36,409 bases of DNA from Candidatus Cloacimonadota bacterium. Its GTDB lineage: Bacteria; Cloacimonadota; Cloacimonadia; Cloacimonadales; TCS61. How positions within the stretch are numbered: position 1 is the stretch's first letter; every line of letters begins with the position of its first letter. The stretch is from assembly GCA_021736135.1 (NCBI GenBank), contig JAIPGO010000033.1, forward strand, positions 1 through 36,409. Direction: 5' to 3'. Positions 9,210 to 31,997 of this stretch are shown piece after piece. Below the pieces are notes generated by a model, which was not told the origin of the DNA, made no database searches, and saw only the letters and a program-made list of their open reading frames with translations. A program made the position numbers and the translations under genes.

Positions 9210-9220
9210 GGAATTATTTT

Positions 9221-12702: not shown

Positions 12703-12704
12703 TT

Positions 12705-15190: not shown

Positions 15191-16072
15191 ATGCATAAGC
15201 TCTTTTTCTTGATATTTTACCTGTTTTTTACTGTGTCTGCTTTTTCCTATACGATCATGGCACCGGATAATCCGTCCTCTTTACCTCTGCTCATTGCTGC
15301 TGATCATATTCCCGATCTGGAAGTGAAGCTTTTTTCTAATCACACACAGGCACACTCGCTTTTTCTCAGCGGAAAAATTCCCCTGCTGCTGACCGGTTAC
15401 GCCGTTGGCGAAAGCTTTGCCCGTCGCGATGTTCCCATCAAAATGGCTGCTTCCTGGATTAATGGTTTGAACTGGCTGGTTTCGGCAGATTCCACAATTT
15501 CCGGTTTTTCCCAGCTTAAAGGTGAAAAGATATATTTCCCTTTCCAGGGCAGTCCCATTGAAGAAATGTCACTCTGGCTGGCTGAAAAGGAAGGTCTGAA
15601 TGTAGAAACAGACCTGGAAACCGGTTATTTGCCCTTCGCATCCATGCTGGAAATGATGCGCCAGGGCAATGTAAAATTTGCCGTTATGCCCGTCTCCTCT
15701 GCTCTGCAGATCGTGGATAATAAAAATTACTTTTTCTCCTTTGATCTGAATGATAAATGGCAGCAGATAACTGATTCTGATTTCTATCCCCAGTTAGGCC
15801 TTTTCTATAATCCACAGCAGAAAAAAGATATTCCACTTGATACGCTGCTGACTGAACTCGAAAAGGCTATACACCAGATAAATGAAGACCCTCTAATGGT
15901 ACAGGAAAAATACGGTGATAAGTTAAGTTTTGCGCCGGAAGTTGTCCGCCAGTCGCTTAATATGATGCGCTTTCAATTCCTGAGAGGTGATGAACTGCAG
16001 AAGAAAATGGAGCTTTACTTTGAAAAAAACGGAATCAACCCACCTCCCCGCTCTTTTTATTCAACTGATTAA
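15191..16072 (+). CDS. ABC transporter substrate-binding protein, NMT1/ThiY/SsuA-like
   Basis: A 293-residue periplasmic protein with a signal peptide at about residues 1-19 (FLIFYLFFTVSAFS). The body fits the NMT1/SsuA-like fold: an early APDNPSSLPLLIA strand-loop, then GLNWLVSADSTI and GSPIEEMSLWLAEKEGL. The family binds sulphonates, nitrate, thiamine precursors or similar small molecules; the ligand here cannot be read off. It starts immediately after the U32 stop and its end overlaps the permease frame. No ATPase of this class is adjacent. Confidence 0.8.
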   Translation: MHKLFFLIFYLFFTVSAFSYTIMAPDNPSSLPLLIAADHIPDLEVKLFSNHTQAHSLFLSGKIPLLLTGYAVGESFARRDVPIKMAASWINGLNWLVSADSTISGFSQLKGEKIYFPFQGSPIEEMSLWLAEKEGLNVETDLETGYLPFASMLEMMRQGNVKFAVMPVSSALQIVDNKNYFFSFDLNDKWQQITDSDFYPQLGLFYNPQQKKDIPLDTLLTELEKAIHQINEDPLMVQEKYGDKLSFAPEVVRQSLNMMRFQFLRGDELQKKMELYFEKNGINPPPRSFYSTD

Positions 16073-16793
16073 GAAAAACCTGGTCGGTTTTTTCGCTTTT
16101 CTGCTGCTCTGGGAGATTCTTTCTCTCATCTTTCCTGCCTATATCATCCCTTCCCCGTGGCTGATCATTCGGAAGATACCAGAATTCCTCAACCAGGAAT
16201 TTGTTTTACATCTGCAAATATCCCTTTTCCGCCTCTTAACCGGTTTCGTTTCTGCGTTTCTGATTGCTACCTTTATCGGCATCGCAGCATACAAACTCAC
16301 CCTTTTTGAATATACTGAAAATATCCTTTCCCTTTTTCAGGTCATTCCAGGCGCTATTCTGGGAATTATATTTCTCATCATTTTCGGAGTTGGCAATAAC
16401 GTACCCATTGCTATGATCATCGTTATGTCCATTCCCATTATGGCAATTAATACGTCCACAGGGTTGAGAAAAATTGTGCGAGAACAGGAAGAAGTTGTCT
16501 ATATTTTCGGTGGCGGTACTCTTGAAATAGTTCGTTACGTATATATCCCGGTTCTGGTGCCGGTTTTCCGCAGTAATATTCTCATCGGTACGGGGCTTGC
16601 TCTGAAAGTCATAGTACTCGGTGAATATATCGGCTGCGAAAATGGTGTCGGCTTCCTGCTCAGTAATGCCCAGACACTATTCCGGATGGACATGGTATTC
16701 TTTTACCTGATGGTTATTATGACCATAGCCCTCATCTTCCAGATAATCGTAAATTTCCTCTTCGTGGAACTCTTCCGTAAATATCTCGACTGA
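15987..16793 (+). CDS. ABC transporter permease, SsuC/ThiX-like
   Basis: A 268-residue inner-membrane permease with about six transmembrane segments. The ATPase-coupling EAA loop is seen as REQEEVVYIFGGGTLEIVRYV, then YIPVLVPVF. The first ATG would give an 86-base overlap with the binding-protein gene, and the first 30 or so residues (MMNCRRKWSFTLKKTEST) look like an out-of-frame reading of that gene. The true start may be a non-ATG codon near 16055-16085. With the preceding binding protein it forms two of the three parts of an importer; the ATPase must be encoded elsewhere or be shared. Confidence 0.85.
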   Translation: MMNCRRKWSFTLKKTESTHLPALFIQLIKKNLVGFFAFLLLWEILSLIFPAYIIPSPWLIIRKIPEFLNQEFVLHLQISLFRLLTGFVSAFLIATFIGIAAYKLTLFEYTENILSLFQVIPGAILGIIFLIIFGVGNNVPIAMIIVMSIPIMAINTSTGLRKIVREQEEVVYIFGGGTLEIVRYVYIPVLVPVFRSNILIGTGLALKVIVLGEYIGCENGVGFLLSNAQTLFRMDMVFFYLMVIMTIALIFQIIVNFLFVELFRKYLD

Positions 16794-16820
16794 TCAAAAA
16801 ATAACAGACATCTCTTTCTA

Positions 16821-16860
16821 AGCTACCTTGCGATTAAATGACCTCTGTAATGGTCGCAAC
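16821..16860 (+). repeat. GCTACCTTGCG-type dispersed repeat
   Basis: AGCTACCTTGCGATTAAATG, then ACCTCTGTAATGGTCGCAAC; a diverged copy with a short deletion in the core compared with 4871. Confidence 0.6.
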
Positions 16861-16893
16861 TGATACCTCTTACCCACAATCTGGAAATAGTGC

Positions 16894-16934
16894 CGTGTTC
16901 ATTCCCCATGCTGCGCACTGGTGAACGTCCACTT
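16894..16934 (-). repeat. 41-base exact repeat, copy 2
   Basis: Exact reverse complement of 2919-2959, about 14 kb away. Confidence 0.8.
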
Positions 16935-16968
16935 TATTTATGAAAATTATACAAGTTATGAAGTTGCC

Positions 16969-17363
16969 TGTAGCATAGACGTCTCGTCTGTGTTTTCTTC
17001 TTTATGGGCTGAGCGATTTACGGTAAAGTCCAGTGGTCAGGCAAAGCGGTTCACAGACGGGGACGTCTGTGCTACAGGAAGATGATAACTTCTTTATTTA
17101 CACAATTTTCTCAGTTATAAAGTGGCTTGTAGCATAGACGTCTCGTCTGTGTTTTCTACTGGTTGTGAGTTTTGCGTAAATTTCGGAGGTCAGGCAAAGC
17201 GGTTCACAGACGGGGACGTCTGTGCTACAGGAAGATGATAACTTCTTTATTTACACAATTTTCTCAGTTATAAAGTGGCTTGTAGCATAGACGTCTCGTC
17301 TGTGTTTTCTTCTTTATGGGCTGAGTGAATTACGGTAAAGTCCAGTGGTCAGGCAAAAGACTG
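16969..17363. repeat. GTAGCA-type tandem inverted-repeat block
   Basis: Units begin with TAGCATAGACGTC at 16971, 17130 and 17283, so spacing is 159 and 153 bases. In a full unit the arm GTAGCATAGACGTCTCGTCT is mirrored about 60 bases later by CACAGACGGGGACGTCTGTG followed by CTAC, making a long imperfect inverted repeat around a variable centre. The third unit is cut off in its second half, where the hairpin-TACTCCA element joins it. A single arm also occurs at 2400. Confidence 0.8.
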
Positions 17364-17378
17364 CGGCTATCGCCGCAC

Positions 17379-17406
17379 ACATCGACACTGTCGATGTACT
17401 CCAAAA
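17379..17406 (+). repeat. Hairpin-TACTCCA repeat, CATCGACA stem
   Basis: ACATCGACA-C-TGTCGATGT followed by ACTCCAAAA, preceded by CTGCGGCT. The element stands just upstream of the arsR promoter. Confidence 0.7.
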
Positions 17407-17411
17407 AGAAC

Positions 17412-17440
17412 TTGACCTATTTGGCGGTTTTGCCAAATAG
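17412..17440 (+). promoter_or_regulatory. Promoter-operator of the ArsR-ArsP-thioredoxin cluster
   Basis: A -35 box TTGACC (17412-17417) and a -10-like CAAATA (17434-17439) are 16 bases apart. The palindrome CTATTTGGC-GGTTTT-GCCAAATAG (17417-17440) covers the spacer and the -10 box, so a bound repressor would block polymerase. The arsR ATG begins 28 bases downstream. Almost the same arrangement recurs at 25366-25393. ArsR at 17468 is the obvious candidate repressor. Confidence 0.65.
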
Positions 17441-17467
17441 TGTCTCATCTCTCTGGAGGTTAAATAT

Positions 17468-17803
17468 ATGGGTAAATGTGATTGTGATAATGAATGTTGC
17501 TGCCAGTCTGAAAAACAGGATCTGGGCAGAGAAGCGGCAATTTTTAAGGCGCTGGGGCATCCCTCGCGTCTTTTAATGCTGACGAGTCTGGCTGATGGCA
17601 AAAAATGCGTCTGTGAACTGCAACAGCTTTTAGGCGTCGATATGTCCACGGTTTCCAAGCATCTGAATGTATTGAAAAAGATAGGCATTGTGGATTTTGA
17701 AAAAGAGGGCAATTATATTTATTACCGTCTGCTAATGCCCTGCGTGATAGATTTTCTAAACTGCATACAAAAAGAAGGCGGATGTCAATGTTCAAATGGT
17801 TAG
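17468..17803 (+). CDS. arsR: ArsR-family metalloregulator
   Basis: A 111-residue winged-helix repressor. The DNA-binding core is AIFKALGHPSRLLMLTSLAD, then LLGVDMSTVSKHLNVLKK (about residues 24-75), followed by the wing GNYIYYRL. The classic metalloid site of the ArsR helix is present as Cys47-Val-Cys49 in KKCVCEL. Unusually there are further cysteines at both ends: CDCDNECCC at residues 4-12 and CQC near 106-108, which may add ligands or tune selectivity. GGAGG precedes the ATG. The gene is the first of its operon, sits behind a palindrome-covered promoter and overlaps the permease gene. Autoregulation by arsenite-type inducers is inferred. Confidence 0.92.
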   Translation: MGKCDCDNECCCQSEKQDLGREAAIFKALGHPSRLLMLTSLADGKKCVCELQQLLGVDMSTVSKHLNVLKKIGIVDFEKEGNYIYYRLLMPCVIDFLNCIQKEGGCQCSNG

Positions 17804-18753
17804 AAAACTTGATCTGGCTTTTAGTGGAAAACGTATTCGGACTTGATCCGGCAACATCTCTGGCAGGTAGTATTCATTTCTTTTTTTATGATGTGATCAA
17901 GATACTCATCCTGCTTTCGCTGATGATCTTTGCCATATCTTACGTCCGCAGTTTTTTCCAGCCGGAACGTACGAAACAGATCGTTTCCCGTTTTCGGGGT
18001 ATTACAGCCAATTTCATGGCATCTCTTTTAGGAATTGTAACTCCATTCTGCTCATGTTCCTCAGTTCCTTTGTTCATTGGATTCGTGGAAGGCGGTATTC
18101 CTTTAGGTGTAACCTTCTCTTTTTTGATCACCTCCCCTATCGTCAATGAAGCAGCCTTTGTAATTCTGCTGGCCTCATTCGGTATCAAAGTTGCCGTTGT
18201 TTATGTTGCCTGCGGTGTGATCATCGGAACCTTGGGCGGTTTCCTGATCGGCAGACTGAAAATGGAAAAATACGTGGAAGAATACGTCTGGAAAATGCAG
18301 ATGGGTGCAGCAGCAAATACGCAGCTTAATCACAAGCAGCGTATGCAGTTTGCCTGGGAGCAATTACACGAGATCATCAAACGCATCTGGATCTATTTAC
18401 TGATCGGTATCGGCATCGGCGCTGCCATTCATGGCTGGGCGCCAGAAGCGATTCTTGCCAGATATGCCGGACCGGAAAATCCTTTTGCAGTAATTGTTGC
18501 CGTAATTTGTGGTATTCCCCTATATTCCAATGCCATGGGTGCAATACCAATAGCGGAAGCGTTGATCGGAAAAGGAGTAGGACTCGGCACGGCATTGGCA
18601 TTTTTAATGGCAGTCACAGCACTTTCCCTGCCCGAAATGATAATCCTGCGTAAAGTCATCAAACCCCGGTTAATAGCCTCTTTTCTGATCATTACCGGTA
18701 TAGGCATCATCCTGGTAGGCTATCTCTTTAATGGGATATATTTTTACTTGTAA
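17782..18753 (+). CDS. arsP: ArsP/YraQ-family permease
   Basis: A 323-residue membrane protein with about eight to ten transmembrane segments. The family hallmark is TPFCSCSSVPLFIGFVEGGI, then SFLITSPIVNEAA; a second half contains GIPLYSNAMGAIPIAEALI. Members of the DUF318/ArsP group export trivalent organoarsenicals such as methylarsenite, although other members have unknown cargo. The ars context favours arsenic but does not prove organic arsenic. The start at 17782 gives a 22-base overlap with arsR; an ATG two codons later (17788) is also possible. AAGAAGGCGG lies upstream. Confidence 0.85.
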   Translation: MSMFKWLENLIWLLVENVFGLDPATSLAGSIHFFFYDVIKILILLSLMIFAISYVRSFFQPERTKQIVSRFRGITANFMASLLGIVTPFCSCSSVPLFIGFVEGGIPLGVTFSFLITSPIVNEAAFVILLASFGIKVAVVYVACGVIIGTLGGFLIGRLKMEKYVEEYVWKMQMGAAANTQLNHKQRMQFAWEQLHEIIKRIWIYLLIGIGIGAAIHGWAPEAILARYAGPENPFAVIVAVICGIPLYSNAMGAIPIAEALIGKGVGLGTALAFLMAVTALSLPEMIILRKVIKPRLIASFLIITGIGIILVGYLFNGIYFYL

Positions 18754-18901
18754 AAATATCGTGAGAAGTGAGACGTGAGAAGTGAAAAGTAATAAAGATA
18801 TCAGCCACTGATCACACGGATCAACATGGATAATTGCATAATTAACATATTTCTTATCCGTGCAAATCCGTGTAATCCGTGGCTAAAAAAAGGAGTTAAA
18901 T
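18754..18901. repeat. Imperfect inverted repeat of ATCCGTG type in the spacer
   Basis: After short GTGAGAAGTGA-like direct repeats (18768-18790), AGCCACTGATCACACGGATC (from 18803) is mirrored by AATCCGTGTAATCCGTGGCT ending at 18884. A related ATCCGTG cluster appears near 36199-36233. It separates arsP from the thioredoxin gene and could form a long hairpin in the mRNA. AGGAG at its right end is the next gene's ribosome-binding site. Confidence 0.55.
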
Positions 18902-19138
18902 ATGGTTATTAAAATTCTGGGATCCGGTTGCAGGAACTGCAATATTCTGGAAAAGAACGTCATTGATACCCTGGCGAAGCATAATATTGCCGCGTCTGTC
19001 GAGCACATTCAGGATATTGAAGTCATTATCGGTTATGGAGTAATGTCCACTCCAGCGCTGGTGATTGACGAAAAAGTTGTTTCCACGGGTAAAGTGCTCA
19101 AAGAAAAAGAGCTGTTGAAGTTCTTTAAGCCGGAATAA
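18902..19138 (+). CDS. Small cytosolic thioredoxin-like protein (redox-active disulfide type)
   Basis: A 78-residue thioredoxin fold without a signal peptide. The active site is Cys10-Arg-Asn-Cys13 in GSGCRNCN, near the N-terminus as in the archaeal/TM0996-like 'redox-active disulfide protein 2' group. A cis-proline loop follows in STPALVIDEKVV. Such proteins are often encoded beside ArsP-type permeases. It is inferred to supply or accept electrons on the cytosolic side of the CcdA-like protein encoded 1 base further on. AAGGAG precedes the ATG. Confidence 0.88.
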   Translation: MVIKILGSGCRNCNILEKNVIDTLAKHNIAASVEHIQDIEVIIGYGVMSTPALVIDEKVVSTGKVLKEKELLKFFKPE

Positions 19139-19139
19139 A

Positions 19140-19835
19140 ATGCTTGAAAATCTGGCAACCGCTCTGTATGGCGCACCCGTCATTGCAGCATTAGCTGCTT
19201 TGGGCTGGGGCATTCTCAGCGTATTGCTCAGCCCCTGCCATCTATCCAGTCTTCCGTTGATCATTGCCTATATAAATCGTCAGGATGGCATCAAACCACG
19301 CCAGGCGTTTAATATTTCGCTGGCATTTTCCTTAGGGATTCTGGTAACCATGCTGATCATGGCGGTGATCTCATTTACGATTGGCATTCTGCTTGGACCG
19401 GTGGAACTTTTACTCAATATATTCGTCAGTCTGCTCTTACTGCTGGCTGGATTATATTTTCTCGACCTTCTGCCCATAACCGGCGGCATTGAGCTGATCG
19501 ATAAACGCTTACATAAAAGCCCATACTGGAATGGTTTTTATCTGGGAATACTACTCGGCATAGGGCTCGGAGCATGTGCACTGGCATTTATGGCGCCTAT
19601 TTTAAGTATCAGCATCAGTAATATTTCCGTGCGACCGGTTTTCAGCATCACCCTTATGCTCGCCTTTATTATAGGACACTGCGGTATAATCGTGGCTGCC
19701 GGTACATTTATGGAAACCCTGAAAAAATACCTGCGCTGGAATCATACTTCCCGAGGAACCGTCTATATCCGCAGGATCAGCGGCATATTGATCATCATCG
19801 CCGCCATCTATAACCTGATCAAAAACATACTCTAA
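19140..19835 (+). CDS. ccdA: CcdA/DsbD-like transmembrane thiol electron carrier
   Basis: A 231-residue membrane protein with about six transmembrane segments. The two redox cysteines expected of the family are Cys33 in LLSPCHLSSLPLI and Cys146 in GLGACALAFMAPIL. CcdA-type proteins pass reducing power from cytosolic thioredoxin across the membrane to exported thioredoxins. Here it lies exactly between a cytosolic thioredoxin and a secreted one. The middle helix pair after the first Cys is normal in length. Its specific partner is inferred from gene order. Confidence 0.88.
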   Translation: MLENLATALYGAPVIAALAALGWGILSVLLSPCHLSSLPLIIAYINRQDGIKPRQAFNISLAFSLGILVTMLIMAVISFTIGILLGPVELLLNIFVSLLLLLAGLYFLDLLPITGGIELIDKRLHKSPYWNGFYLGILLGIGLGACALAFMAPILSISISNISVRPVFSITLMLAFIIGHCGIIVAAGTFMETLKKYLRWNHTSRGTVYIRRISGILIIIAAIYNLIKNIL

Positions 19836-19851
19836 GCGTAAGGAATTTTAT

Positions 19852-20226
19852 ATGAAAAAAATAATGCTGTTATTCTGTTTCGTCCTGATGATATCACTTT
19901 CCGCTGAAATCACTGTTCTTGATTCCACGGATTCCACAGCTACTATCAAACCGCAGATCACCTTTCACGAATTCGGTTCCACCACCTGCGTCCCCTGTAA
20001 AATGATGGAAAAGGTCATGGACGAGGTTCGCACCATTTACGGCAACCGGGTAGAAGTTATATTTCATAATGTAAATATCGAAAGGGAACTTTCTGCCAGC
20101 TACAATATTAAAATGATACCTACTCAGGTTTTTCTTGATGCCGAAGGTAAAGAATTCAACCGTCACGTAGGCTATTACCCCACATCCGAGATCGTCAAAC
20201 TTTTCGAAGCTCAGGGGATTAAATAA
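19852..20226 (+). CDS. Secreted thioredoxin
   Basis: A 124-residue protein with a signal peptide (about residues 1-18) and a thioredoxin domain with the active site Cys46-Val-Pro-Cys49 in GSTTCVPCKMMEKVM. The cis-proline loop is IKMIPTQVFLD. It has a close paralogue at 27403; by eye about three quarters of the mature residues agree and the nucleotide match around the active site is high. It is inferred to be reduced by the CcdA-like protein just upstream and to act on envelope thiols or arsenicals. AAGGA precedes the ATG. It ends 32 bases before the convergent ACR3 gene; no clear terminator hairpin is seen in between. Confidence 0.92.
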   Translation: MKKIMLLFCFVLMISLSAEITVLDSTDSTATIKPQITFHEFGSTTCVPCKMMEKVMDEVRTIYGNRVEVIFHNVNIERELSASYNIKMIPTQVFLDAEGKEFNRHVGYYPTSEIVKLFEAQGIK

Positions 20227-20258
20227 CTTTACTCAGCAATAAATACCCCAAAGTTTCA

Positions 20259-21320
20259 CTAATTACCCTTTTCCGGGAACCAGTGTTTTGTCTTATTGGC
20301 GATTTTTACTAAGGTCAGCATCACCGGCACTTCCACCAGCACTCCCACGATAGTTGCCAAAGCCACAGGTGATGTAGTGCCGAAGAGCGATATTGCCACG
20401 GCTACAGCAAGTTCAAAGAAATTTGAAGCTCCAATCATACCGGCTGGAGCGGCAATATTGTGAAGAAGTTTCAATTTCCTGGCAGCTAAATAAGCTATGA
20501 AAAATATCAGGAAGGTCTGAATTGTCAGGGGAATAGCAATCAGGATGATGTGCAAAGGATTATTAAGGATAACATCACCCTGAAAAGCAAAAATGATGAC
20601 CAGCGTCAGCAGTAGCCCGCCAATTGTCACGTTGTTGAATTTTGGAGTGAATGTTTTATTAAAATACTCTTCTCCATAGCTTTTTATTACGCTGGTACGC
20701 GTGATAATACCTCCAGCCAGAGGAATTACAACAAACAGCAGAACCGATAACAGCAACGTATTCCACGGTATGGTTATCCCGCCGATACCAAGCAGAAACG
20801 CCACAATCGGCGTAAATGCCACCAGAATTATCAGATCATTGGTTGCCACCTGCACAACCGTATAAGCCGGATCGCCTTTAATCAAATGGCTCCAGACAAA
20901 AACCATTGCCGTGCAGGGTGCTGCTCCCAGTAATATTGCACCCGCGAGGTAATCACGGGCAAGCTCTGTTGGTATCAATGCCTTGAAGATCACAAAAAAG
21001 AATAACCAGGCTATGCCATACATCGTAAAAGGTTTGATCAGCCAGTTGGAAACCCAGGTGACATATAATCCCTTCGGATTTCTGCCCACATTCCTGATAC
21101 TGGCAAAATCCACTTTCATCATCATAGGATAGATCATCAGCCAGATTAATATGGCAATCGGAAGGGAAACCCTGGCATATTCGAACTGACCCAGAAATGC
21201 CGGTATCCCTGGCAGATATTTACCAATCAGAACTCCTGCCGCCATACACAAAATCACCCACAGAGTTAAATATTGCTCGAAAAAACTGATACCTTCTTTT
21301 AAATTCTTTTTTCTGCTCAT
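20259..21320 (-). CDS. acr3: ACR3-family arsenite efflux transporter
   Basis: A 353-residue membrane protein with about ten transmembrane segments. Family motifs are visible: LPIAILIWLMIYPMMMKVDF, the essential Cys136 in GAAPCTAMVFVWSHL, then VVQVATNDLIILVAF. ACR3 expels arsenite driven by the proton gradient. It is the last gene of the minus-strand operon headed by the ArsR at 25259, separated by 75 bases from the ABC ATPase. Length is typical of bacterial ACR3. Confidence 0.95.
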   Translation of the reverse strand: MSRKKNLKEGISFFEQYLTLWVILCMAAGVLIGKYLPGIPAFLGQFEYARVSLPIAILIWLMIYPMMMKVDFASIRNVGRNPKGLYVTWVSNWLIKPFTMYGIAWLFFFVIFKALIPTELARDYLAGAILLGAAPCTAMVFVWSHLIKGDPAYTVVQVATNDLIILVAFTPIVAFLLGIGGITIPWNTLLLSVLLFVVIPLAGGIITRTSVIKSYGEEYFNKTFTPKFNNVTIGGLLLTLVIIFAFQGDVILNNPLHIILIAIPLTIQTFLIFFIAYLAARKLKLLHNIAAPAGMIGASNFFELAVAVAISLFGTTSPVALATIVGVLVEVPVMLTLVKIANKTKHWFPEKGN

Positions 21321-21395
21321 TATTATTTACTCCTAAGTCATATTATTCTTCAACTTCAATCCCGGGGATTGCAGTAGGGGAATGTATTTTGTCCT

Positions 21396-22058
21396 TTAAT
21401 ATTCAACAATCCTTCCCTCAGCAATTCTGATTATTCTGCCGGCAGCATGAGCAACCTGCGGATCATGAGTGATCACAACAACTGTTCTCCCCTCCTGGTG
21501 CTGCTTTGTGATTATCTGCATGATTTCTTTCCCTGTTTCAGGATCAAGATTTCCCGTTGGTTCATCAGCAAAGATAATGTTTGGATTTTTTATGAGGGCT
21601 CGTGCTAATGCCACACGCTGCTGCTGCCCGACACTTAGTTCCGAAGGCAAGTGGTCTTTGCGATCTGCAATTTTCATCTGCTCGAGCAATGGGATTATTA
21701 AGGCATCGCTTATATTTTTCTCCCCAGCCAGGGCAAGACCTGCACCGACATTTTCGTAAACCGTTAAATAGGGAATCAGATTAAAAGACTGAAAAACAAA
21801 CCCGATCTGACTTGCCCGCCATTTAGCCCTTTTATTCACATCCCAGTTATATACCGAATTCTTTTCAAATAAAACCGCACCTTTACTCGGTGAACTCATG
21901 CCCCCCAAAGCAAGTAACAGAGTACTTTTACCGCTTCCGCTCGGACCGGTAATCGCAATAAATTCCCCTTTCTCGATCTTTAACGAAACCTGATCAAGGG
22001 CAATAACTTCACCATGTTTTCTTTTAAATGTTTTAGTAATATATTCGGCTTGCAGCAT
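21396..22058 (-). CDS. ABC transporter ATPase, MacB/LolD-like
   Basis: A 220-residue ATPase with Walker [11 protein letters not shown]-loop [18 protein letters not shown], signature [15 protein letters not shown], Walker [13 protein letters not shown] and the switch His in VVVITHD. This set is typical of the MacB/LolD/FtsE group, which pairs with FtsX-like permeases. It starts 4 bases after the permease stop, so the two form one transporter. The presence of this pair in an ars operon is unusual; the cargo is unknown. Export of a peptide or lipoprotein, or mechanical work on the envelope, are possible. Confidence 0.94.
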
Positions 22059-22062
22059 TTTC

Positions 22063-23280
22063 TTAAATCTCCTTCATAATTATCGACGGATCTACTTTGG
22101 CTGCCTTGAGTGCAGGGATTGCACTGGCGATCAGGGCAATTATTACGGATATTAATAAACTGTAAACCGCATACCAGGGCAGAGGTAACACATTTATTCC
22201 TGCAATCTGAGGTCCAAGTATTATAGCCAGGACAGATCCAAGCAGGTAACCGATTATTCCTCCCGAAATTCCGATTATCAGGGCTTTCATGAGAAACATC
22301 CTGATTATCCAGTACTGGTTGGCACCCAGAGCCAGATAGATACCTATTTCCCTTTGCCTTTCCTGAACATTGGAAAACATATAGTTCGCTATACTTGCTC
22401 CTCCAACGAGCAAAATCACGATCAACAGGATTATTGATATGCGCTTCATAACTGTATTTGTCTTGATCTGCGTTTGGACAATCTGGGTAATAGTGACAAC
22501 TTTTGCGTCGGGTAAAAGTTTATTGATTTTCTGAATTAATCCACCCGATATAGCTGAACAACAGCCTACTATTTCGATGGAATGTAAAACGTCACTTTTC
22601 CCTGCCAGTTCCTGTACGGTGTGTAAATGGGCAAAAAGCCTGCCATCATCTACAGTTCCAGTTAACGGAAGTACTGCAATTATGATGAACTTCTTACCGA
22701 GAACTACCAGAGAATCATTTTCCGCAATTCCTAAAATTTTTGCGATATCCGCTCCGGCTAACATTTCCAGTGGAGATAAATCTTCTATTACCTGCCTGCG
22801 AACGGTCGTTTCTGCTGCATAAGTTACTCCGGGAATATTCACAGGGGTACCACATCCTTCCGGTTGAGAAAATATACCAAGTGCTCCCTGCCATATATAT
22901 TTTGATTTAAACTCATTTTTCGGTAATATACCCGTTAAGGTAGCTTGACGCCCATTTAAATCAATCGGAAGACTGAATTTCGGAGACATATTATCAATAC
23001 CCTGAATATCGCTTTCGGCAAGTATCGTCACATAGTCTTCGGGTATTTCTGACTGCTGAAAGTCTGCACTGTAATAATCCTGCACTGTTGCGTCTTTTGC
23101 TAATATCAGTACATTTGCCCCCAAGGCATCAAGTTCGCCTGCTACGGCTTTTTCAGAATAGTACGTTATACTCTGAATTGCCACCATCACTGCTATTCCC
23201 AGGGATACTGCTATAAGGCTGGAAATTAACTGATTTCGTCTCTGAAAAAGTTCTTTGATTACTATTTGCCTGATTTTCAT
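22063..23280 (-). CDS. MacB/FtsX-like ABC permease
   Basis: A 405-residue permease. An N-terminal transmembrane segment (about residues 15-40) is followed by a large periplasmic domain (MacB-PCD type, about 45-270) and three C-terminal segments (about 280-400). The typical NVQERQREIGIYLALGANQY loop and SAIPALKAAKVDPSIIMKEI end are present. MacB-type permeases move substrates from the periplasmic side outward or drive shape changes. No membrane-fusion partner or TolC is encoded nearby; the secreted thioredoxin-S74 protein next door may be its partner or substrate (inference). Confidence 0.9.
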   Translation of the reverse strand: MKIRQIVIKELFQRRNQLISSLIAVSLGIAVMVAIQSITYYSEKAVAGELDALGANVLILAKDATVQDYYSADFQQSEIPEDYVTILAESDIQGIDNMSPKFSLPIDLNGRQATLTGILPKNEFKSKYIWQGALGIFSQPEGCGTPVNIPGVTYAAETTVRRQVIEDLSPLEMLAGADIAKILGIAENDSLVVLGKKFIIIAVLPLTGTVDDGRLFAHLHTVQELAGKSDVLHSIEIVGCCSAISGGLIQKINKLLPDAKVVTITQIVQTQIKTNTVMKRISIILLIVILLVGGASIANYMFSNVQERQREIGIYLALGANQYWIIRMFLMKALIIGISGGIIGYLLGSVLAIILGPQIAGINVLPLPWYAVYSLLISVIIALIASAIPALKAAKVDPSIIMKEI

Positions 23281-23310
23281 TCATTCCTCTGATTAGCAAG
23301 TGCCAAACTG

Positions 23311-24384
23311 TTATTTTTTGCCTTCTAATTTATTGAGCCTTTTTTCCTGTTCCTGGATTATGATATCCTGCTGCTGTATCTGGTGTTCCATTTCCTTTAC
23401 TGCCTCAATGAGCAATGCTGCAAGTTTGTCATACTCCACAGATTTATACCCGTCTAAATCTGTATTCACAACTTCCGGAACAACCGATTCCACATCCTGG
23501 GCGATCAAACCTATTTGCCTGCCCTCCGGAAAAAATCTCTGGGGAAATTCTTCTCTATTCCAGGTAAATGATACTCCGTTAAGTTTTGACACTTTAGCAA
23601 GCGGAGATTCTATCGGACTGACATTATTTTTAAAGCGCAGATCAGAGCAGCCACCTGTGCCGCAACCGCCGGATGAACATGCCTGCAGAACGGATACAAG
23701 TTCACTTTTTGTCACTTTACCAGTTAATATCTTACCAATACTCCCGGGCGGAAGAAGCACTACAACCGTTGCTTCCATTACAGGAGTTATCAGTTTACAC
23801 TGTTTGATAAAATCCTGATTACCGGCAGCAGAAGGATCTGCTTTAACTACCGCAGTGATTTGACTATACTGCTTATCATCAGCGAATTCATTTACTCCTT
23901 GCAGAGATTCGGCATTGAACTCGGTCATTTCATTCTGTAGTGCGACTAACACAATTTTTTGTTCCTGAAGTGGTTTCAGGATCTGGAGCATTATATCTGG
24001 CACAGATATCCCTTCTCTTATTTGTTCGGTAGTAACCGTCTTAGGGAAACCGCCTGTTATGGCACCATTGGAAGCGATAATAATCAGTATGGGAAGATCT
24101 GCTGCCCGGCGAATGCCGTACTTTTTCGCTATCTCTTGATTAACAGGATCATTATAGTCCGCGAAATAATAAGATGTATTGTCACTTTGTGTAGTAGAAA
24201 ATTTTTCTATTACCGATGACATCTCATTAAATGATTGCTCTTCTTTATCATAAAAAGCAAGCAGCAAAAACTGCCCATCTTTTGCTGCTTTTTCCAAAGC
24301 CTCCTCAGTGCTGAAAGACATTGCAGAAGCAATTGAAGCCAGGAGCAGTAATGATATAATTACTAAAAGCATCTTTCTGTTCAT
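23311..24384 (-). CDS. Secreted thioredoxin-fold protein fused to an S74 intramolecular chaperone domain
   Basis: A 357-residue protein. Signal peptide at about 1-21. A degenerate thioredoxin-like fold at about 22-140 has no CXXC (the site reads FYDKEEQSF) but keeps a cis-Pro-like loop ADLPILII. A second alpha/beta segment spans about 145-235. Then comes a Cys/Gly hinge, Cys236-SSGG-Cys241-GTGG-Cys246, and an S74/ICA domain at about 247-330: SDLRFKNNV, then FTWN, GRQIGLIAQDVESVVPEVV and DYDKLAAL-like VEYDKLAALLIEAVKE. A C-terminal coiled coil ends the protein. The self-cleavage dyad of S74 proteins is matched by Ser247 and Lys252. Cleavage would leave a product ending in the Cys/Gly hinge. 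AGGAGG precedes the ATG. Confidence 0.85.
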   Translation of the reverse strand: MNRKMLLVIISLLLLASIASAMSFSTEEALEKAAKDGQFLLLAFYDKEEQSFNEMSSVIEKFSTTQSDNTSYYFADYNDPVNQEIAKKYGIRRAADLPILIIIASNGAITGGFPKTVTTEQIREGISVPDIMLQILKPLQEQKIVLVALQNEMTEFNAESLQGVNEFADDKQYSQITAVVKADPSAAGNQDFIKQCKLITPVMEATVVVLLPPGSIGKILTGKVTKSELVSVLQACSSGGCGTGGCSDLRFKNNVSPIESPLAKVSKLNGVSFTWNREEFPQRFFPEGRQIGLIAQDVESVVPEVVNTDLDGYKSVEYDKLAALLIEAVKEMEHQIQQQDIIIQEQEKRLNKLEGKK

Positions 24385-24416: not shown

Positions 24417-24830
24417 TTATTTTCTCTTTCTGGGTCTTAGACTGCAGGCGCAACTTCCTATCAGTTCTTCATTTCTGTTAATCTTCAAGGGCAAGCCATC
24501 CTTTTCCCAATCAACAACTCCCCCTATCAGTACGGCAATTTCCTGAAAACCTTTTTCTCTCAGGAATATAACGGCTTCCCTGCTGTTTAATCCCACATAA
24601 TCTGCAAAAATCAAAAGCTTATCACTGGGGAGAATTTCCCATTCTTTTTCTAAAACTGAATACGGTAAATTGATTGTTGTTTTCACTATGAAAGTTCTGC
24701 CATTCCTGAAATATTCCTCCCTGATATCCACTAAAATTGCTTCGTTCTCCAGAAATGCAAGCGCTTTACGTGGAGTTATAAATAAAACTTCTTCTATTAA
24801 AAAGCAACTTTCAATAAAATTATTATCCAA
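24417..24830 (-). CDS. Rhodanese-like protein lacking the catalytic cysteine
   Basis: A 137-residue rhodanese-fold protein: AILVDIREEYFRNGR is the N-terminal strand and CH2A-like motif, INLPYSVLEKEWEILP follows, and IGGVVDWEKDGLPL closes the fold. The active-site loop, usually CxxGxRS, reads ADYVGLNSREA, so the persulphide Cys is replaced. Three other cysteines exist: Cys9, and Cys127 and Cys129 in GSCACSLRPRKRK at the C-terminus. Sulphur transfer of the normal kind is therefore unlikely; metalloid or thiol binding through the C-terminal CAC is a speculation. The start is TTG with a strong GGGAGGAG upstream. It follows arsR in the minus-strand operon. Confidence 0.85.
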   Translation of the reverse strand: MDNNFIESCFLIEEVLFITPRKALAFLENEAILVDIREEYFRNGRTFIVKTTINLPYSVLEKEWEILPSDKLLIFADYVGLNSREAVIFLREKGFQEIAVLIGGVVDWEKDGLPLKINRNEELIGSCACSLRPRKRK

Positions 24831-24866: not shown

Positions 24867-25259
24867 CTAAACAGGGCAGCACTTGATCCCTCTTTGCCTC
24901 CGACAGAGTTCTTCAGGAGCATATTTTGTAATTCCTTCCAGAAGCTTTATATCCTGTTGAACCAGCGCTGATTTTTCAAATTCTGCTTTCATCCATTCAA
25001 TAAATGATTTATAATCACTCTGGGGTGCTTGAAAACTATAGTAAACCCAGCGCCCGTCGCGTCTGCTCTCAACCAGTCCCGCAGACATGAGGATTCCAAG
25101 CTGCCGTGATGCTGAAGCTCCTTTTACCTGCAAAAGCTCTATGATCTGAGTGGCACATAACTCGTCATATTGCGTCAAAGCTGCAATAATCCGTAACCGG
25201 TTACTGTCTGCCAGTGCTTTAAAAACAGTTAACAGCATTTTCATAACAACCAACTTCAT
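24867..25259 (-). CDS. arsR: ArsR-family regulator of the ACR3 operon
   Basis: A 130-residue winged-helix repressor: VFKALADSNRLRIIAALTQY, then LLQVKGASASRQLGILMSAG and the wing RDGRWVYYSF. Its helix has only one Cys (ELCATQ) in place of CxC, while the C-terminus ends with KCCPV, so its inducer site differs from the ArsR at 17468. The first ATG has no Shine-Dalgarno and directly abuts a palindrome; Met6 or Met8 could be the true start. It is transcribed away from the CxxC-protein gene and heads the six-gene minus-strand operon ending in acr3. Confidence 0.9.
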   Translation of the reverse strand: MKLVVMKMLLTVFKALADSNRLRIIAALTQYDELCATQIIELLQVKGASASRQLGILMSAGLVESRRDGRWVYYSFQAPQSDYKSFIEWMKAEFEKSALVQQDIKLLEGITKYAPEELCRRQRGIKCCPV

Positions 25260-25365: not shown

Positions 25366-25393
25366 TTGACGGATTTGGCGGTTTCGCCAAATA
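25366..25393 (+). promoter_or_regulatory. Promoter-operator of the CxxC protein / thioredoxin cluster
   Basis: TTGACG (25366-25371) and CAAATA (25388-25393) are 16 bases apart, the same spacing as at 17412. The palindrome ATTTGGCG-GTTT-CGCCAAAT (25373-25392) covers the spacer and most of the -10 box. It matches the 17412 site at almost every position, so both clusters are probably under the same repressor. Confidence 0.65.
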
Positions 25394-25648: not shown

Positions 25649-27226
25649 ATGATATTAAGGATCGCCACTGGGATATTAGTGTTTCTTTGTTTAATATCTA
25701 ATTTACCTGCTGTGGAAACTGCTGGAACAAATCCGGTAAGATTTTATCTGTTTTATTCCGAAGATTGTGAGGACTGTGAAGAATTTTTAGAATACACATT
25801 ACCGTATCTGGAGCAGAAATATTCTATTGATTATCAATTATTTAGCGTTAATGACAGTAAAAACTTCGCGCTTCTCAATCAACTGGAGAAGCAATATGGG
25901 GCAACAAAAGATGTTCCGATAATCTTTATTGGTGATTACATTATCGGTGGTCTGGATGCTCACATTGACATTGAGAATATCATAATTGAATATAGTAAGA
26001 GTGGTTGTGAATTTCCTGAAGTAGTAAATAATTCTGCCGAAATTGATTCGGTAAAGAGTAACAGCTCCGGGCAACCACAACAGTTGGAAACAGAAAACGG
26101 CACAGAATCCATAACAAATATCAGCGACCCGGCAGCTTCTGTTTATATCGCTTATTTTTTTAAAGAAGGATGCAGTCATTGTGATAGAACCTATCTTGAT
26201 CTGCAACATATTAAAAAGAAATATCCCCAGGTAGTTATCCGCGAATATGATATTTCCACCCGTGCAGGCATGGAATTAAGTGAAGCATTAAGCACGCTAT
26301 ATGATCTCCCTGAAAACAAACATTCCGTTACACCAGTGGTATTTATTGGAGATAAATACCTCCTGCAGGAAAAGGCGCGCTGGCATAACCTGGAAAATAT
26401 TATTCTTTTAGGTACTTCGGATCTGGAAATACCTCCCTGGGAGAAAGCAGAACAATTTAAGGGTAATTCCGGGCTCTCGATTATTGAAAGGTTCAAATCT
26501 CTTGGAATTATTACAATTATTCTTGCCGGACTGATAGATGGTATTAATCCCTGCGCTTTTGCCACCATAATTTTCCTGGTCTCATATCTTTCATTATCAG
26601 GCAGAAAGGGGAAAGAGATATTAATAATCGGGTTTTCCTATACGCTGGCAGTCTTTCTTACCTATTTTCTCCTCGGGATTCTGGGGCTGAGTATTCTGGA
26701 GAAAATCAGGCAGATCAATTCTCTGGCAATCATTATTAATATTCTCTTCGTCGTTATCGGGACTCTGTCAATTATTCTGGCTGCTTATAGCCTTTATGAT
26801 TATTATTTATTCCGTAAATCCCGTACTTCTGAAATGGTTCTGCAACTGCCACGTAAAATTAAGCTGAAAATTCACCAGATTATCAGGGAGAAAACGAAAG
26901 TTCAACATTTCATCATCGGAGCTTTTGTGATTGGATTTCTGGTTTCTATCCAGGAATTATTCTGTACCGGACAGGTATATCTGCCTACTCTGGTTTACAT
27001 GAGTAATCTGATGCAGTACAGATTACAGGCATATATATATCTGATAATTTACAATATTCTCTTTATCTTTCCCCTTATAGTCGTATTCATGCTCATCTAC
27101 TGGGGAATATCTTCCAGAAAAATGGGCAATTGGGTGCAGCAGAAAACCGGAATTACCAAGATATTGCTGGCTGTTATTTTCCTGATTCTTGGTATAATTC
27201 TGATATATTCAGGTATAAGGGGTTAA
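25649..27226 (+). CDS. Double thioredoxin fold fused to a CcdA/DsbD-like membrane domain
   Basis: A 525-residue protein. Signal segment at about 1-20; first thioredoxin-like domain at about 28-115 with Cys40-Glu-Asp-Cys43; Ser/Thr/Asn-rich linker at about 120-160; second thioredoxin-like domain at about 163-255 with Cys175-Ser-His-Cys178; then about six transmembrane segments (285-520). The membrane part has the DsbD-type GINPCAFAT (Cys302) and a second Cys439 in QELFCTGQVYLP, the expected redox pair. Placement of both thioredoxin domains before the membrane domain resembles a DsbD with its parts rearranged. It is inferred to carry electrons outward and hand them to the secreted thioredoxin at 27403. 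No strong Shine-Dalgarno is seen at this ATG. Confidence 0.88.
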   Translation: MILRIATGILVFLCLISNLPAVETAGTNPVRFYLFYSEDCEDCEEFLEYTLPYLEQKYSIDYQLFSVNDSKNFALLNQLEKQYGATKDVPIIFIGDYIIGGLDAHIDIENIIIEYSKSGCEFPEVVNNSAEIDSVKSNSSGQPQQLETENGTESITNISDPAASVYIAYFFKEGCSHCDRTYLDLQHIKKKYPQVVIREYDISTRAGMELSEALSTLYDLPENKHSVTPVVFIGDKYLLQEKARWHNLENIILLGTSDLEIPPWEKAEQFKGNSGLSIIERFKSLGIITIILAGLIDGINPCAFATIIFLVSYLSLSGRKGKEILIIGFSYTLAVFLTYFLLGILGLSILEKIRQINSLAIIINILFVVIGTLSIILAAYSLYDYYLFRKSRTSEMVLQLPRKIKLKIHQIIREKTKVQHFIIGAFVIGFLVSIQELFCTGQVYLPTLVYMSNLMQYRLQAYIYLIIYNILFIFPLIVVFMLIYWGISSRKMGNWVQQKTGITKILLAVIFLILGIILIYSGIRG

Positions 27227-27402: not shown

Positions 27403-27798
27403 ATGAAAAAACTGATGTTATTCTTCTCCCTTTTCCTGATAATATCCCTGGCTGCGGAAATAACTCCTGCTGATACTTCGCAAATAGTCAAACCGCAGAT
27501 CACTTTTCTCGAATTCGGTTCCACCACCTGCATTCCCTGCAAAATGATGGAAAAAGTAATGGAAGAAGTGCGCACTATTTACGGCGACAGCGTAGCCGTG
27601 ATCTTTAACAACGTAAATGAGGAAAGAGAACTTTCCAAGACCTGGAACATCAAACTGATACCCACCCAGATATTCCTCGATGCTGATGGCAAAGAATTCT
27701 TCCGTCACGAAGGCTATTACCCCACTGAAGAAATAGCAAAGCTCTTCGCAGAAAATGGTCTGCCAAAACCGGAAGTAAAAGAAGAAATAAAAGAATAA
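27403..27798 (+). CDS. Secreted thioredoxin, paralogue of the one at 19852
   Basis: A 131-residue protein with a signal peptide at about 1-18, active site Cys43-Ile-Pro-Cys46 in GSTTCIPCKMMEKVM, and cis-proline loop IKLIPTQIFLD. It differs from its paralogue mainly in the surface loop and in a Lys/Glu-rich tail (PKPEVKEEIKE). AAGGA lies upstream. The 176 bases between it and the fusion gene hold no gene that can be supported; a 32-codon frame beginning TTG at 27308 ends in an ATGA overlap with this start but has no ribosome-binding site. Confidence 0.92.
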   Translation: MKKLMLFFSLFLIISLAAEITPADTSQIVKPQITFLEFGSTTCIPCKMMEKVMEEVRTIYGDSVAVIFNNVNEERELSKTWNIKLIPTQIFLDADGKEFFRHEGYYPTEEIAKLFAENGLPKPEVKEEIKE

Positions 27799-28126: not shown

Positions 28127-30022
28127 ATGAAAAGTGATGACTATAAAAAGAAGATAGCAGAGAGCAGTGGTCGAGAGAAAGGCAGTTTATTATTACAGTA
28201 TTCCAATTACCTGTTACAGATAGATACGGAAAAGAGCTGTCTGATGGCACTGGAAGCCTTGAAGTTGAGCAGGAAACTGGCAGATAGAGAATTTGAAATA
28301 CTCTGCCAGATCCATCTGGGCTATGCCAGACTTTATAACGGCAATTTTGAGCAGATAACTCCGTTAGTGGAAGATTTGTTAATTATGGGTAAAGATCTAG
28401 ACAATCAACGGGCCCTGGGAGCGGCTTACAATCTGAAGGCAGATGTAGCACTGCAGCAGAATAAACCGGATGAAGCCATAGAAAATTACCTTCTGGCAGA
28501 GAGATATTACCGTCAGGGGAATATAAAATATAATCAAATGAGCTGCCTGAATAACCTGGGAAAGATCCACCATCATTTAAAGAATTATGAGGAAGCATAT
28601 CATTATATGGCTTTAGCTCTGGAAATTGGAGAAGAACTTCAGACACCTACCTGTGACACGATCAGGATGAATATGGGCAGCATTAAATATGAAGATAATA
28701 ATTATGAACAGGCACTGGAACTTTATCAGGCATCCGCCCGGTCATTTAAAGCGCAGGACTTGAAGAATAATGAAGCTTATGCCATCTTTAATATTGGTCT
28801 GGCTTATGGAGCGCTTGATAAACCGGAACAACAGCTTGAATGTTATAATGAATCATATAGACTGCTGAAGGAAATAAACGACTGGAAAGAACTGAGCAGG
28901 ATCTGCCGTAAAATTGCCGAGGTATATATTGACAGCGAAGAATATTCCGACGCAATGAAATACCTGGAGGAAGGAGAGACACTTGCCCGTTCTCATGAAC
29001 TGGAAAGCAGCCTGATCGAAATATTGAAGAGCTATGCTCACTGCCTGGAAAGGCAGGGATTATTTAAGCAATCGTTAGGCTATATGCACCAGTATCTGGA
29101 ACTGCATAATGCCTATATGACACGGATAAACAATGAGAAAATAGCCGAGATGAATTCCAGGTTCAAAACGGAAATCTACCGCCTTCAAAATCAGGAATTG
29201 AAAGAGAAAACGCGAACATTGAACAATCAAATTGGCAAGCTGGCAGGATCATTAAAGCAATTGCGTGAAGAGCATAAGCTGCTTGAGGGTAAATTCCAGT
29301 CCGCGATCACCCTGCTTAATACTCAGGACAACCTGATATCTTCGCAATCCCGCATGGCAGTAATGGGAGAGATGATTTCACTGATCGCACATCAATGGCG
29401 GCAGCCATTAAATGTGATCGGAATTCTGGTGCAATCATTTCAGGATGCGTGGGAATATGATGACCTTTCGGAAGAATTCGTTTCACAGCAGGTAACGGAA
29501 GCGATGGAGCAGATCAAGTATATGTCTGACATGATCACAGATTTCCGTAATTTTTTCAAGCCGGAAGGAATTAGTAAGTTTAATTTAAAGGATGCCATAG
29601 AAAATGCCATTCACTTACTCAATTATCTGCTGCAGAAATCTGAGATAGAACTGGAAACGGAACTTTCTAATAATTGTTTCTTTAACGGGGTAAGAAATGA
29701 CATCACGCAAGTGATACTGAACCTGATGAATAATGCCCGGGATGCCATGCTGGCAGCAGGTATAAGCAAGCCATTGATCCGTATATCTCTGGAAAAAGCC
29801 TCTGATGAGATCGTCATCAGGGTTTTTAACAAAGGCGAGCAGATCCCGGAAGAAACAGTTGCAAAGCTCTTTCAACCTTATTTCACAACCAAGGAAGAAA
29901 ATGGAACCGGAATTGGATTATATTTATGCCAGATGATCATTGAAAATAAGTATAAAGGCAAAATCAGGGGAGGAAACTGCCCTGAGGGAGTGGAATTCAT
30001 CATCAGGCTTCCCCTTCAATGA
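28127..30022 (+). CDS. Soluble TPR sensor histidine kinase 1
   Basis: A 631-residue cytosolic kinase, with no transmembrane segment. About eight TPR units fill residues 20-335 (for example NLGKIHHHLKNYEEAYHYM and NIGLAYGALDKPEQQLECY). A coiled coil follows at about 340-405. The HisKA region has MAVMGEMISLIAHQWRQPLN with phosphoacceptor His422, then the N box around 527-541 (NLMNNARDAM), a G1-like FNKGEQI, F-box-like QPYFTTK and G2 GTGIGLY at about 593. The G1 position holds Asn instead of the usual Asp. TPRs suggest sensing through a protein or peptide partner. It is the most diverged of the four paralogues together with kinase 2. No response regulator is adjacent. Confidence 0.93.
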   Translation: MKSDDYKKKIAESSGREKGSLLLQYSNYLLQIDTEKSCLMALEALKLSRKLADREFEILCQIHLGYARLYNGNFEQITPLVEDLLIMGKDLDNQRALGAAYNLKADVALQQNKPDEAIENYLLAERYYRQGNIKYNQMSCLNNLGKIHHHLKNYEEAYHYMALALEIGEELQTPTCDTIRMNMGSIKYEDNNYEQALELYQASARSFKAQDLKNNEAYAIFNIGLAYGALDKPEQQLECYNESYRLLKEINDWKELSRICRKIAEVYIDSEEYSDAMKYLEEGETLARSHELESSLIEILKSYAHCLERQGLFKQSLGYMHQYLELHNAYMTRINNEKIAEMNSRFKTEIYRLQNQELKEKTRTLNNQIGKLAGSLKQLREEHKLLEGKFQSAITLLNTQDNLISSQSRMAVMGEMISLIAHQWRQPLNVIGILVQSFQDAWEYDDLSEEFVSQQVTEAMEQIKYMSDMITDFRNFFKPEGISKFNLKDAIENAIHLLNYLLQKSEIELETELSNNCFFNGVRNDITQVILNLMNNARDAMLAAGISKPLIRISLEKASDEIVIRVFNKGEQIPEETVAKLFQPYFTTKEENGTGIGLYLCQMIIENKYKGKIRGGNCPEGVEFIIRLPLQ

Positions 30023-30092
30023 GCTTGACAAAAGGAACAGAATTTAAGAGTTAGATAAATTAAGTGGGATGACAAAAATAAAAGAGTGTGAT

Positions 30093-31997
30093 ATGAAAGA
30101 AGCAGAATTACAGTCAATGTTGAGAGATAGCCAGGGTAAAGAGAGAATAAAGGTATTAATCAAATATTCGGAGTTTTTAAGACAATCAGGAGACCGGCGG
30201 AGTATTACATTTGCAGAGGAAGCGCGACAGATTGCGTTAGCCAATGAGAATGATGACGAAGAGATAGCGGCACTTGTTTGCATTGCTTATGCTCATTTTT
30301 ATCTGTCTGAATTCGAAGAAGCGAAAAAGTTTACCCATGAATTATTACAGAGAGGATTAAAAATAAATGATCCCGAAACTCTGGGGACTTCTTATAATAT
30401 CAGGGCACGCATAGCATATAAATCGGAAAATCCCGGCAAAGCGCTGGAATTATTTTTAAAGGCACTGGAATATTACCTTCAGAAACCTCAGGGCTGGAAT
30501 CTGATGAGTTGTTATAACAATCTTGGAATGTGTCATTTACATCTAGGCAACACTGAGGAGGCATATAATTATTATCAGTTAGCCCTGGAGCAGGCGGAGA
30601 AATTGAATCATCCGGCCCGGGAGACCATTTTGATGAATATTGGCAATATCCATTATAATCGGGAAGAATTTGATCAGGCACTGAAATATTATAAACGAGC
30701 CGAGACAATGTTCCGGGAAAATAATTTAGTGGTAAATCTGGGGAATGTCTGCTACAATCTGGGATTGGTATATCATCAACTAGGTGATAGAGAGCAAAGC
30801 ATGACCTATTTCGAGAAATCGTATAAACTGCAAAAGGAGATCAATGATCCCAAGGGTTTAAGCACAAGCTGCGTTACGATAGGTTCTGAACTGCTCCATC
30901 TGGGCAGATATGATGAAAGCTATCGTTATCTTCAGGAATCACTGCGCATTTCTGAGGAAAACAATCTTAAGTGGAATCTTCTGGAAACCAGCGAAGCTTT
31001 TGCCAGGTATTGGCACTATAAAGGAAATTTTGAGGAAAAGAGCAAATATCTGGAACAGGTAATAACTTTAACCAGTGAATTGAATAAAGAATTGAACCGA
31101 GAACAACTATCTGAGATGGAAGCGAAATATAAAACACAGATATATATGTTGCGTTCGCAGGAACTGGATGCAGAGAATAAGTCAATGTCGGAGCAGATAG
31201 TCCGTCTAAAAGAGGCAATGGAAGGCTTACGGGATATCCATGAGCAATTGAAGCAGGAATTTCAGCAGGCAGTTACTAAGATCAATGAGCAGGATAACCT
31301 GCTATCCACGCAATCGCGCATGGCAGTGATGGGGGAGATGGTATCAATCATCGCACACCAGTGGCGACAGCCTTTGAACATAATAGGGCTATTAGTGCAA
31401 TCCTTTCAGGATGCCTGGGAATTCAACGAGATATCCGGAGAATTTATCGATGAGCAGGTGAAGATCGTTATGGAGCAGATACAGTATATGTCTGAAACGA
31501 TAACAGATTTCCGTGATTTTTTCAAGACGGAATATGTGAATGACTTTAAACTTGAGGACGTGATATCCAGATCATTACAATTGCTTGATTATAGTTTGAA
31601 AAAGGCAAGGATTGAGGTTGAAACGGAATTTGAGGGAGACTGCCGTATAGGCGGCAATCCCAATGAGATCGTGCAGGTGCTTTTAAACATCATCAATAAT
31701 GCCCGGGAAGCGATGCAGGAAAATAAAATACCCGAACCCTTGATCAGGATAAGATTAAGTCTTGAGCAGGAAAATATTTTCATCAGAATATTCAATAAAG
31801 GCAACCTGTTATCAGAAGAAGTAAGGAATAAACTATTTGAACCATATTTTACAACGAAAAGTAATGAAGGTACCGGTATAGGATTATATATCTGCCGCAA
31901 AATAATAGAAAACAAGTATCAGGGCAAATTTGATGTCGAGTGCCGGGAAGATGGCGTGGAATTCGCGATATCCCTTCCCGCAGAAATTTTGAAATGA
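30093..31997 (+). CDS. Soluble TPR sensor histidine kinase 2
   Basis: A 634-residue paralogue of the preceding kinase with the same order: TPR array, coiled coil (about 340-410), HisKA with MAVMGEMVSIIAHQWRQPLN, HATPase with NEIVQVLLNIINNAREAM, FNKGNLL, EPYFTTK and GTGIGLYICRK. An upstream ATG at 30069 would add eight residues, but the start at 30093 puts the SQG of the N-terminus at the same distance from Met as in the other three and gives His422, as in all of them; it is therefore preferred despite a weak Shine-Dalgarno. It begins 70 bases after kinase 1 stops. Partner and signal unknown. Confidence 0.93.
   Translation: MKEAELQSMLRDSQGKERIKVLIKYSEFLRQSGDRRSITFAEEARQIALANENDDEEIAALVCIAYAHFYLSEFEEAKKFTHELLQRGLKINDPETLGTSYNIRARIAYKSENPGKALELFLKALEYYLQKPQGWNLMSCYNNLGMCHLHLGNTEEAYNYYQLALEQAEKLNHPARETILMNIGNIHYNREEFDQALKYYKRAETMFRENNLVVNLGNVCYNLGLVYHQLGDREQSMTYFEKSYKLQKEINDPKGLSTSCVTIGSELLHLGRYDESYRYLQESLRISEENNLKWNLLETSEAFARYWHYKGNFEEKSKYLEQVITLTSELNKELNREQLSEMEAKYKTQIYMLRSQELDAENKSMSEQIVRLKEAMEGLRDIHEQLKQEFQQAVTKINEQDNLLSTQSRMAVMGEMVSIIAHQWRQPLNIIGLLVQSFQDAWEFNEISGEFIDEQVKIVMEQIQYMSETITDFRDFFKTEYVNDFKLEDVISRSLQLLDYSLKKARIEVETEFEGDCRIGGNPNEIVQVLLNIINNAREAMQENKIPEPLIRIRLSLEQENIFIRIFNKGNLLSEEVRNKLFEPYFTTKSNEGTGIGLYICRKIIENKYQGKFDVECREDGVEFAISLPAEILK

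Follow-up and report, generated by a model that had tools for sequence, protein, structure and literature searches.

How does an S74 self-cleaving domain come to stand at the C-terminal end of a secreted thioredoxin (Trx)-fold protein in an arsenic-resistance operon, and what would it do there? The gene is found in the window, i.e. the whole stretch of 36,409 nucleotides analysed (contig JAIPGO010000033.1 of a Candidatus Cloacimonadota bacterium). A first-pass annotation had placed it at 23311-24384 and named no strand. The coordinates are right and the gene lies on the minus strand, which carries a 357 aa open reading frame, while the plus strand of the segment displays many stops. The annotated layout also holds: a signal peptide, a Trx fold, a Cys-x4-Cys-x4-Cys sequence and an S74/ICA domain with Ser247 and Lys252 (Table 1).

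Table 1. Features of the fusion gene and its neighbourhood (window coordinates)
Feature	Position	Strand	Remarks
Trx-tail-S74 fusion gene	23311..24384	minus	357 aa open reading frame
Signal peptide, residues 1-21 (MNRKMLLVIISLLLLASIASA)	24322..24384	minus	by eye from the sequence
First Trx fold (predicted), residues 26-123	24016..24309	minus	without CXXC; Pro98 family-invariant
Second Trx fold (predicted), residues 128-238	23671..24003	minus	Trx order repeated; fold matches to tandem-Trx protein disulfide oxidoreductases
Cys tail CSSGGCGTGGC, residues 236-246	23647..23679	minus	Cys246 column invariant
Ser247, predicted nucleophile; predicted cut Cys246/Ser247	23644..23646	minus	invariant in alignments A3 and A4
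Lys252, dyad partner	23629..23631	minus	invariant in alignments A3 and A4
S74/ICA domain, residues 247-357	23314..23646	minus	closes with long helix 318-355
FtsX/MacB-type permease, 405 aa, partner gene	22063..23280	minus	FtsX 1.6e-18; MacB_PCD 9.8e-6, slightly under cut-off
ABC ATPase, FtsE/LolD/MacB type	21396..22058	minus	ABC_tran 5.6e-35
ACR3 arsenite efflux transporter	20259..21320	minus	385 bits vs cut-off 283
Rhodanese-like protein	24417..24830	minus	
ArsR/SmtB-family regulator, first gene of operon	24867..25259	minus	metalloregulator family model E = 5e-23
20-bp palindrome ATTTGGCGGTTTCGCCAAAT, candidate operator	25373..25392	none	between divergent operons
Second palindrome copy	17419..17438	none	differs by one base; lies 29 bp upstream of the other arsR

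The genes on the same strand run in the order arsR, rhodanese-like gene, fusion gene, ftsX, ABC ATPase gene and acr3, flanked by divergent genes and a second ars cassette. The ArsR and ACR3 neighbours annotated earlier are real. A 20-bp palindrome, ATTTGGCGGTTTYGCCAAAT, is situated upstream of both arsR cassettes (2 found vs 0.34 expected) and is likely their shared operator. The FtsX/MacB_PCD permease and separate ABC ATPase are the components of a type VII ABC transporter. Transporters of this type usually use a periplasmic partner and pass no substrate through the inner membrane (PMC12646458). The protein formed by the Trx part and the Cys tail (Trx-tail protein) fits the place of such a partner because of its gene position and predicted export.

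Other sequences in the window are recorded here. An open reading frame at 25649-27226 consists of two glutaredoxin-like CXXC domains fused to an ArsG/DsbD-like membrane part, and the ars genes are flanked by a 78 aa CXXC protein (18902-19138) and two similar secreted CXPC thioredoxins (19852-20226 and 27403-27798). The cluster resembles an ArsR-ArsF-ArsG-Trx-permease-ArsC-ACR3 cluster of a Prevotella plasmid. Positions 28127-31997 encode two TPR-histidine-kinase proteins, neighbours that resemble each other and appear to be a tandem duplication. Positions 1-5000 show a GC content of 0.32-0.37, vs about 0.43 for 5001-24000.

Pfam Thioredoxin_6 matches residues 28-105 of the fusion protein (E = 2.5e-6, barely above cut-off). 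The full-length model has zero alignment rows covering the Trx part, and this part was modelled separately. The single-sequence model (mean pLDDT 58.5, moderate confidence) displays the order helix-strand-helix-strand-helix-strand-strand-helix twice in succession. Its best matches among solved structures are 1a8l and 1j08, both tandem-Trx protein disulfide oxidoreductases (PDO), and 1j08 is also a weak match at the sequence level. The conserved Pro that precedes a strand in Trx folds is present as Pro98, which is invariant in the family alignment. On the model, then, the Trx part is two tandem Trx folds. The CXXC active site of thioredoxins and PDO is absent, cysteines being found only at positions 196, 236, 241 and 246. 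Thus the earlier description of a Trx fold without CXXC was correct as to the motif but not as to the number of folds. As there is no CXXC in the Trx part, the protein is not an ordinary oxidoreductase.

Whole-genome searches, with the loci then fetched for protein extraction, yielded 57 relatives from 51 genomes in at least four other phyla. They are found in 6 of 387 genomes of a broad set, and in 5 of 40, 4 of 39 and 39 of 392 genomes of the G380, G279 and G260 phyla, respectively. There is no clear relative among 125 genomes of the same phylum as the window. Exact-short-peptide scans of genome contigs, which are insensitive, and tblastn against plasmids gave no relatives; the family alignment shows no stretch conserved enough for peptide scanning. 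Pfam and NCBIfam give weak general Trx matches and no model of the family's own. The Trx-tail proteins are a family previously unmodelled in these two collections, and in the fusion a member of this unmodelled family of transporter partners carries a self-cleaving domain of known kind.

At 56 of the 57 loci the Trx-tail gene is situated just upstream of genes for an FtsX permease and an ABC ATPase, both of the window type; in 54 loci ftsX lies 300 bp or less downstream of it. The sole locus without the pair runs into a contig edge. The fusion gene, with its Cys tail, is likewise situated directly upstream of the FtsX and ABC genes. Trx-FtsX-ABC is a conserved module and not an oddity. The first-pass annotation had considered the combination with a MacB-like pair unusual, but the unusual part is the S74 domain alone, a fusion that is so far unique. 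A description of the module was not found in the open papers searched. Several genomes of the G260 phylum encode small Cys-rich proteins, without a match in Pfam, upstream of the module (L126 2524-2985, L128 4004-4699, L069 9912-10394).

The relatives end in a short Cys-rich tail, as a rule with three cysteines: 40 of 57 have exactly three within the last 60 residues, and 26 of 57 display CCx4C. All 40 aligned members have a cysteine in the Cys246 column. A stop follows this column within 14 residues in 26 of 39 relatives, the closest ones ending one residue past it. The closest relative terminates in ...ACSSGGGCGSGGCK-stop and other relatives in ...SSCGSGCGSGGCK, where the fusion protein reads ...ACSSGGCGTGGC|SDLRFK. 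The view that the mature protein would end in three cysteines is now much stronger than when first put forward: the family, in which the Cys246 column is invariant, has this tail as its native C-terminus.

Arsenic genes recur near the family. ACR3 is found near 12 of the 57 loci, and ArsR of the window types near 12 (ArsR2-like) and 7 (ArsR1-like). The closest relative (46%) is situated between arsD-arsA and arsC-acr3, and another member has an ArsR-family gene on one side and a heavy-metal P-type ATPase on the other. The CCx4C spacing is that of Cys12, Cys13 and Cys18 of ArsD, which PMC4562236, citing Lin et al. 2007, gives as essential for the arsenic metallochaperone function. The tail most likely binds a thiophilic metal or metalloid, given the repeated association of three-Cys tails with ArsR and ACR3. 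Copies without ars neighbours are common, and As(III) is therefore likely but unproven as the ligand. Most copies in the G260 phylum have no ars gene nearby, and the substrate may therefore be another metal or a thiol compound. Membership in two known arsenic families was considered and rejected: the fusion protein has no Pfam ArsD match, and no NCBIfam match to ArsF (NF040494), to which 1 of 40 members matches weakly (E = 0.0035).

Locus L136 (G738:C202) carries tandem family copies at 4844-5593 and 5590-6435, each with an in-frame UGA within the Cys tail (...DACG-UGA-GSVCAPVGC... and ...SGSG-UGA-GGGGCAPAGCK). The position of the UGA suggests that selenocysteine may replace a tail Cys in both copies. 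The hairpin downstream of copy 1 is no better than shuffles, that of copy 2 is modest (z -1.8), and Rfam gives no SECIS match for these UGA copies. A third member, at L162 1015-1030, ends in ...ASCGSG-UGA-K-stop, a candidate tail selenocysteine.

The identity of residues 247-357 as S74 is borne out. Pfam Peptidase_S74 matches residues 247-306 with E = 1.2e-15 (58 bits vs cut-off 22), and the S74 profile finds the MyRF ICA 7dc3 (5.5e-12) and the tail fibre 6f45 (2.1e-16) in the PDB. The S74 model, with viral relatives aligned, shows pLDDT 80-98 from residue 251 in blocks of ten, and 90-98 over most of 251-357. Its top Foldseek match is again 7dc3, with an rmsd of 2.2 A. A 38-residue C-terminal helix is predicted at 318-355.

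The Ser247/Lys252 spacing also corresponds to a cleavage dyad. The SDxxxK residues Ser247 and Lys252 are invariant in alignments A3 and A4, and SDLRFK of the fusion protein compares with the catalytic motif (S587A)DLRAK in 7dc3; S247, K252, R250 and F273/W275 all match MyRF catalytic-site places. MyRF is cut between P586 and S587, S587A and K592A each abolish cleavage, and Y615 and Y617 line and shape the site (PMC8326128). The same SDxxxK chemistry is found in a bacterium, in Bdellovibrio Bd3182, where cleavage before the Ser (S782) has been shown (PMC10769870). The residues MyRF requires for cleavage are present, which supports, as a prediction, the earlier proposal of a cut before Ser247. 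The residues that precede the catalytic Ser vary among S74 proteins, and Cys246 at that place is therefore no obstacle. Cleavage of MyRF involves no residue of the stalk, whereas endosialidase uses one from the upstream triple beta-helix (PMC8326128); a missing stalk here is thus a caution and not a contradiction.

In the alignment, the S74 domain follows the native C-terminus of a Trx-tail protein immediately and in frame, so that cleavage at Cys246|Ser247 would restore that end. If cut at the usual S74 position, the mature protein would be the normal family form minus one residue. An uncut S74 would bury the one feature conserved throughout the family, and this is the strongest argument for cleavage. 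A junction that gives back the native end almost to the residue is, at the same time, what would be expected if the S74 domain were a tolerated hitch-hiker that recombined in behind the tail and persists only through self-removal, with no benefit. The origin of the domain fits this as well. None of the 57 relatives carries S74 and a profile scan of their loci is empty; the fusion beside ars genes, for which a survey had been suggested, is not repeated in these relatives. The domain is phage-like: its identity to viral S74 is 40-54% for most of the 26 rows aligned, vs 32-41% to surface proteins of the phylum, in which S74 otherwise forms the C-terminal part of secreted, repeat-rich proteins. 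In an S74 tree of 100 columns the fusion-protein row is unplaced and its nearest rows are viral; a viral scan with the full-length fusion protein gave no matches. The other S74 gene of this genome was rejected as donor (32% identity over the shared stretch). Against a hitch-hiker, the S74 domain is intact and keeps its C-terminal helix as well as every catalytic position tested, and its absence elsewhere is bounded by sampling. We consider a domain without benefit unlikely, though it is the strongest of the alternatives. As one fusion is known, selection on the S74 part is not measurable.

S74 acts as a trimer. The domain could stay uncut and serve as a trimerising clamp, with nine tail cysteines from three chains forming one metalloid site for the transporter. 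The predicted helix 318-355 does resemble the C-terminal helix that forms the MyRF trimer (PMC8326128). But no residue of the SDxxxK motif or the aromatic pair is missing, and the tail with which the relatives work is a free one that an uncut S74 would block, all of which makes a permanent clamp improbable. The trimeric product proposed in the first-pass annotation is not supported as stated, no relative having S74 and the Trx part not necessarily staying trimeric after cleavage. A chimera of assembly or binning, conceivable in a draft genome of 148 contigs with a fusion seen in one genome only, is very improbable indeed, as the open reading frame is continuous, ftsX begins 30 bp past its stop as in relatives, GC is 0.418 before the junction and 0.408 after, and two exact joins, each preserving frame and operon, would be needed.

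The explanation that we favor, and consider probable as a whole, is a secreted type VII ABC partner with a metal- or metalloid-binding tail and an S74 domain as self-removing cap. The fusion gene would encode the secreted partner of a MacB/Lol/FtsEX-like type VII ABC transporter in an arsenic-resistance operon. This partner would have two Trx folds without redox CXXC and a flexible three-Cys tail that binds a thiophilic metal or metalloid, probably As(III), and would work at the outer face of the inner membrane together with FtsX and the ABC ATPase. This lineage appears to have gained a phage-type S74, fused in frame so that it starts right after the last conserved Cys; the S74 domain most likely trimerises and then cuts itself at Cys246/Ser247 by the Ser-Lys dyad, leaving the end displayed by the relatives. 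The S74 would be a disposable cap, either a folding aid or a shield for the tail thiols in export. More tentatively, this may be a further kind of type VII ABC system, one for metalloid handling, in which a secreted tandem-Trx partner presents a three-thiol C-terminal tail, made here by S74 self-cleavage, the S74 finishing a metal-binding C-terminus rather than folding a fibre. If true, S74 self-cleavage would no longer be confined to trimeric fibres and MyRF but would occur in a soluble envelope protein too. The locus further suggests that metalloid-resistance clusters harbour a widespread transporter module for which there is no Pfam or NCBIfam family model.

Several known systems share parts of this arrangement. 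PDO (PDB 1a8l, 1j08) also have two Trx folds in tandem, but the fusion protein lacks CXXC in both. ArsD is likewise Trx-related (one ArsD protein matches Pfam ArsD and, weakly, Thioredoxin_3) and binds As(III) with three cysteines, whose CCx4C spacing is common to many Trx-tail family members; the fusion protein itself has Cx4Cx4C. However, ArsD is cytosolic, has N-terminal cysteines and feeds ArsA, whereas the Trx-tail family is secreted with a C-terminal tail. MacAB-TolC, LolCDE-LolA, FtsEX-EnvC and YbbAP-TesA (PMC12646458) resemble the module in an FtsX-type permease, a separate ATPase and a dedicated periplasmic partner, but in none of the four does the partner combine a Trx fold with a Cys tail, and the context of the fusion gene is metalloid resistance. 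Phage endosialidase and tail-fibre proteins and Bdellovibrio Bd3182 share the C-terminal S74 with SDxxxK but are trimeric beta-helical fibres, and the fusion protein is not a fibre. The MyRF ICA (PDB 7dc3) shows the same fold and SDLRxK motif, and MyRF is a non-fibre protein released by S74 cleavage with a new C-terminus left, as is predicted here. MyRF is, however, a transcription factor of the eukaryotic ER membrane and has a beta-helical stalk, whereas the fusion protein is secreted, with a Trx-fold part and a Gly/Cys linker.
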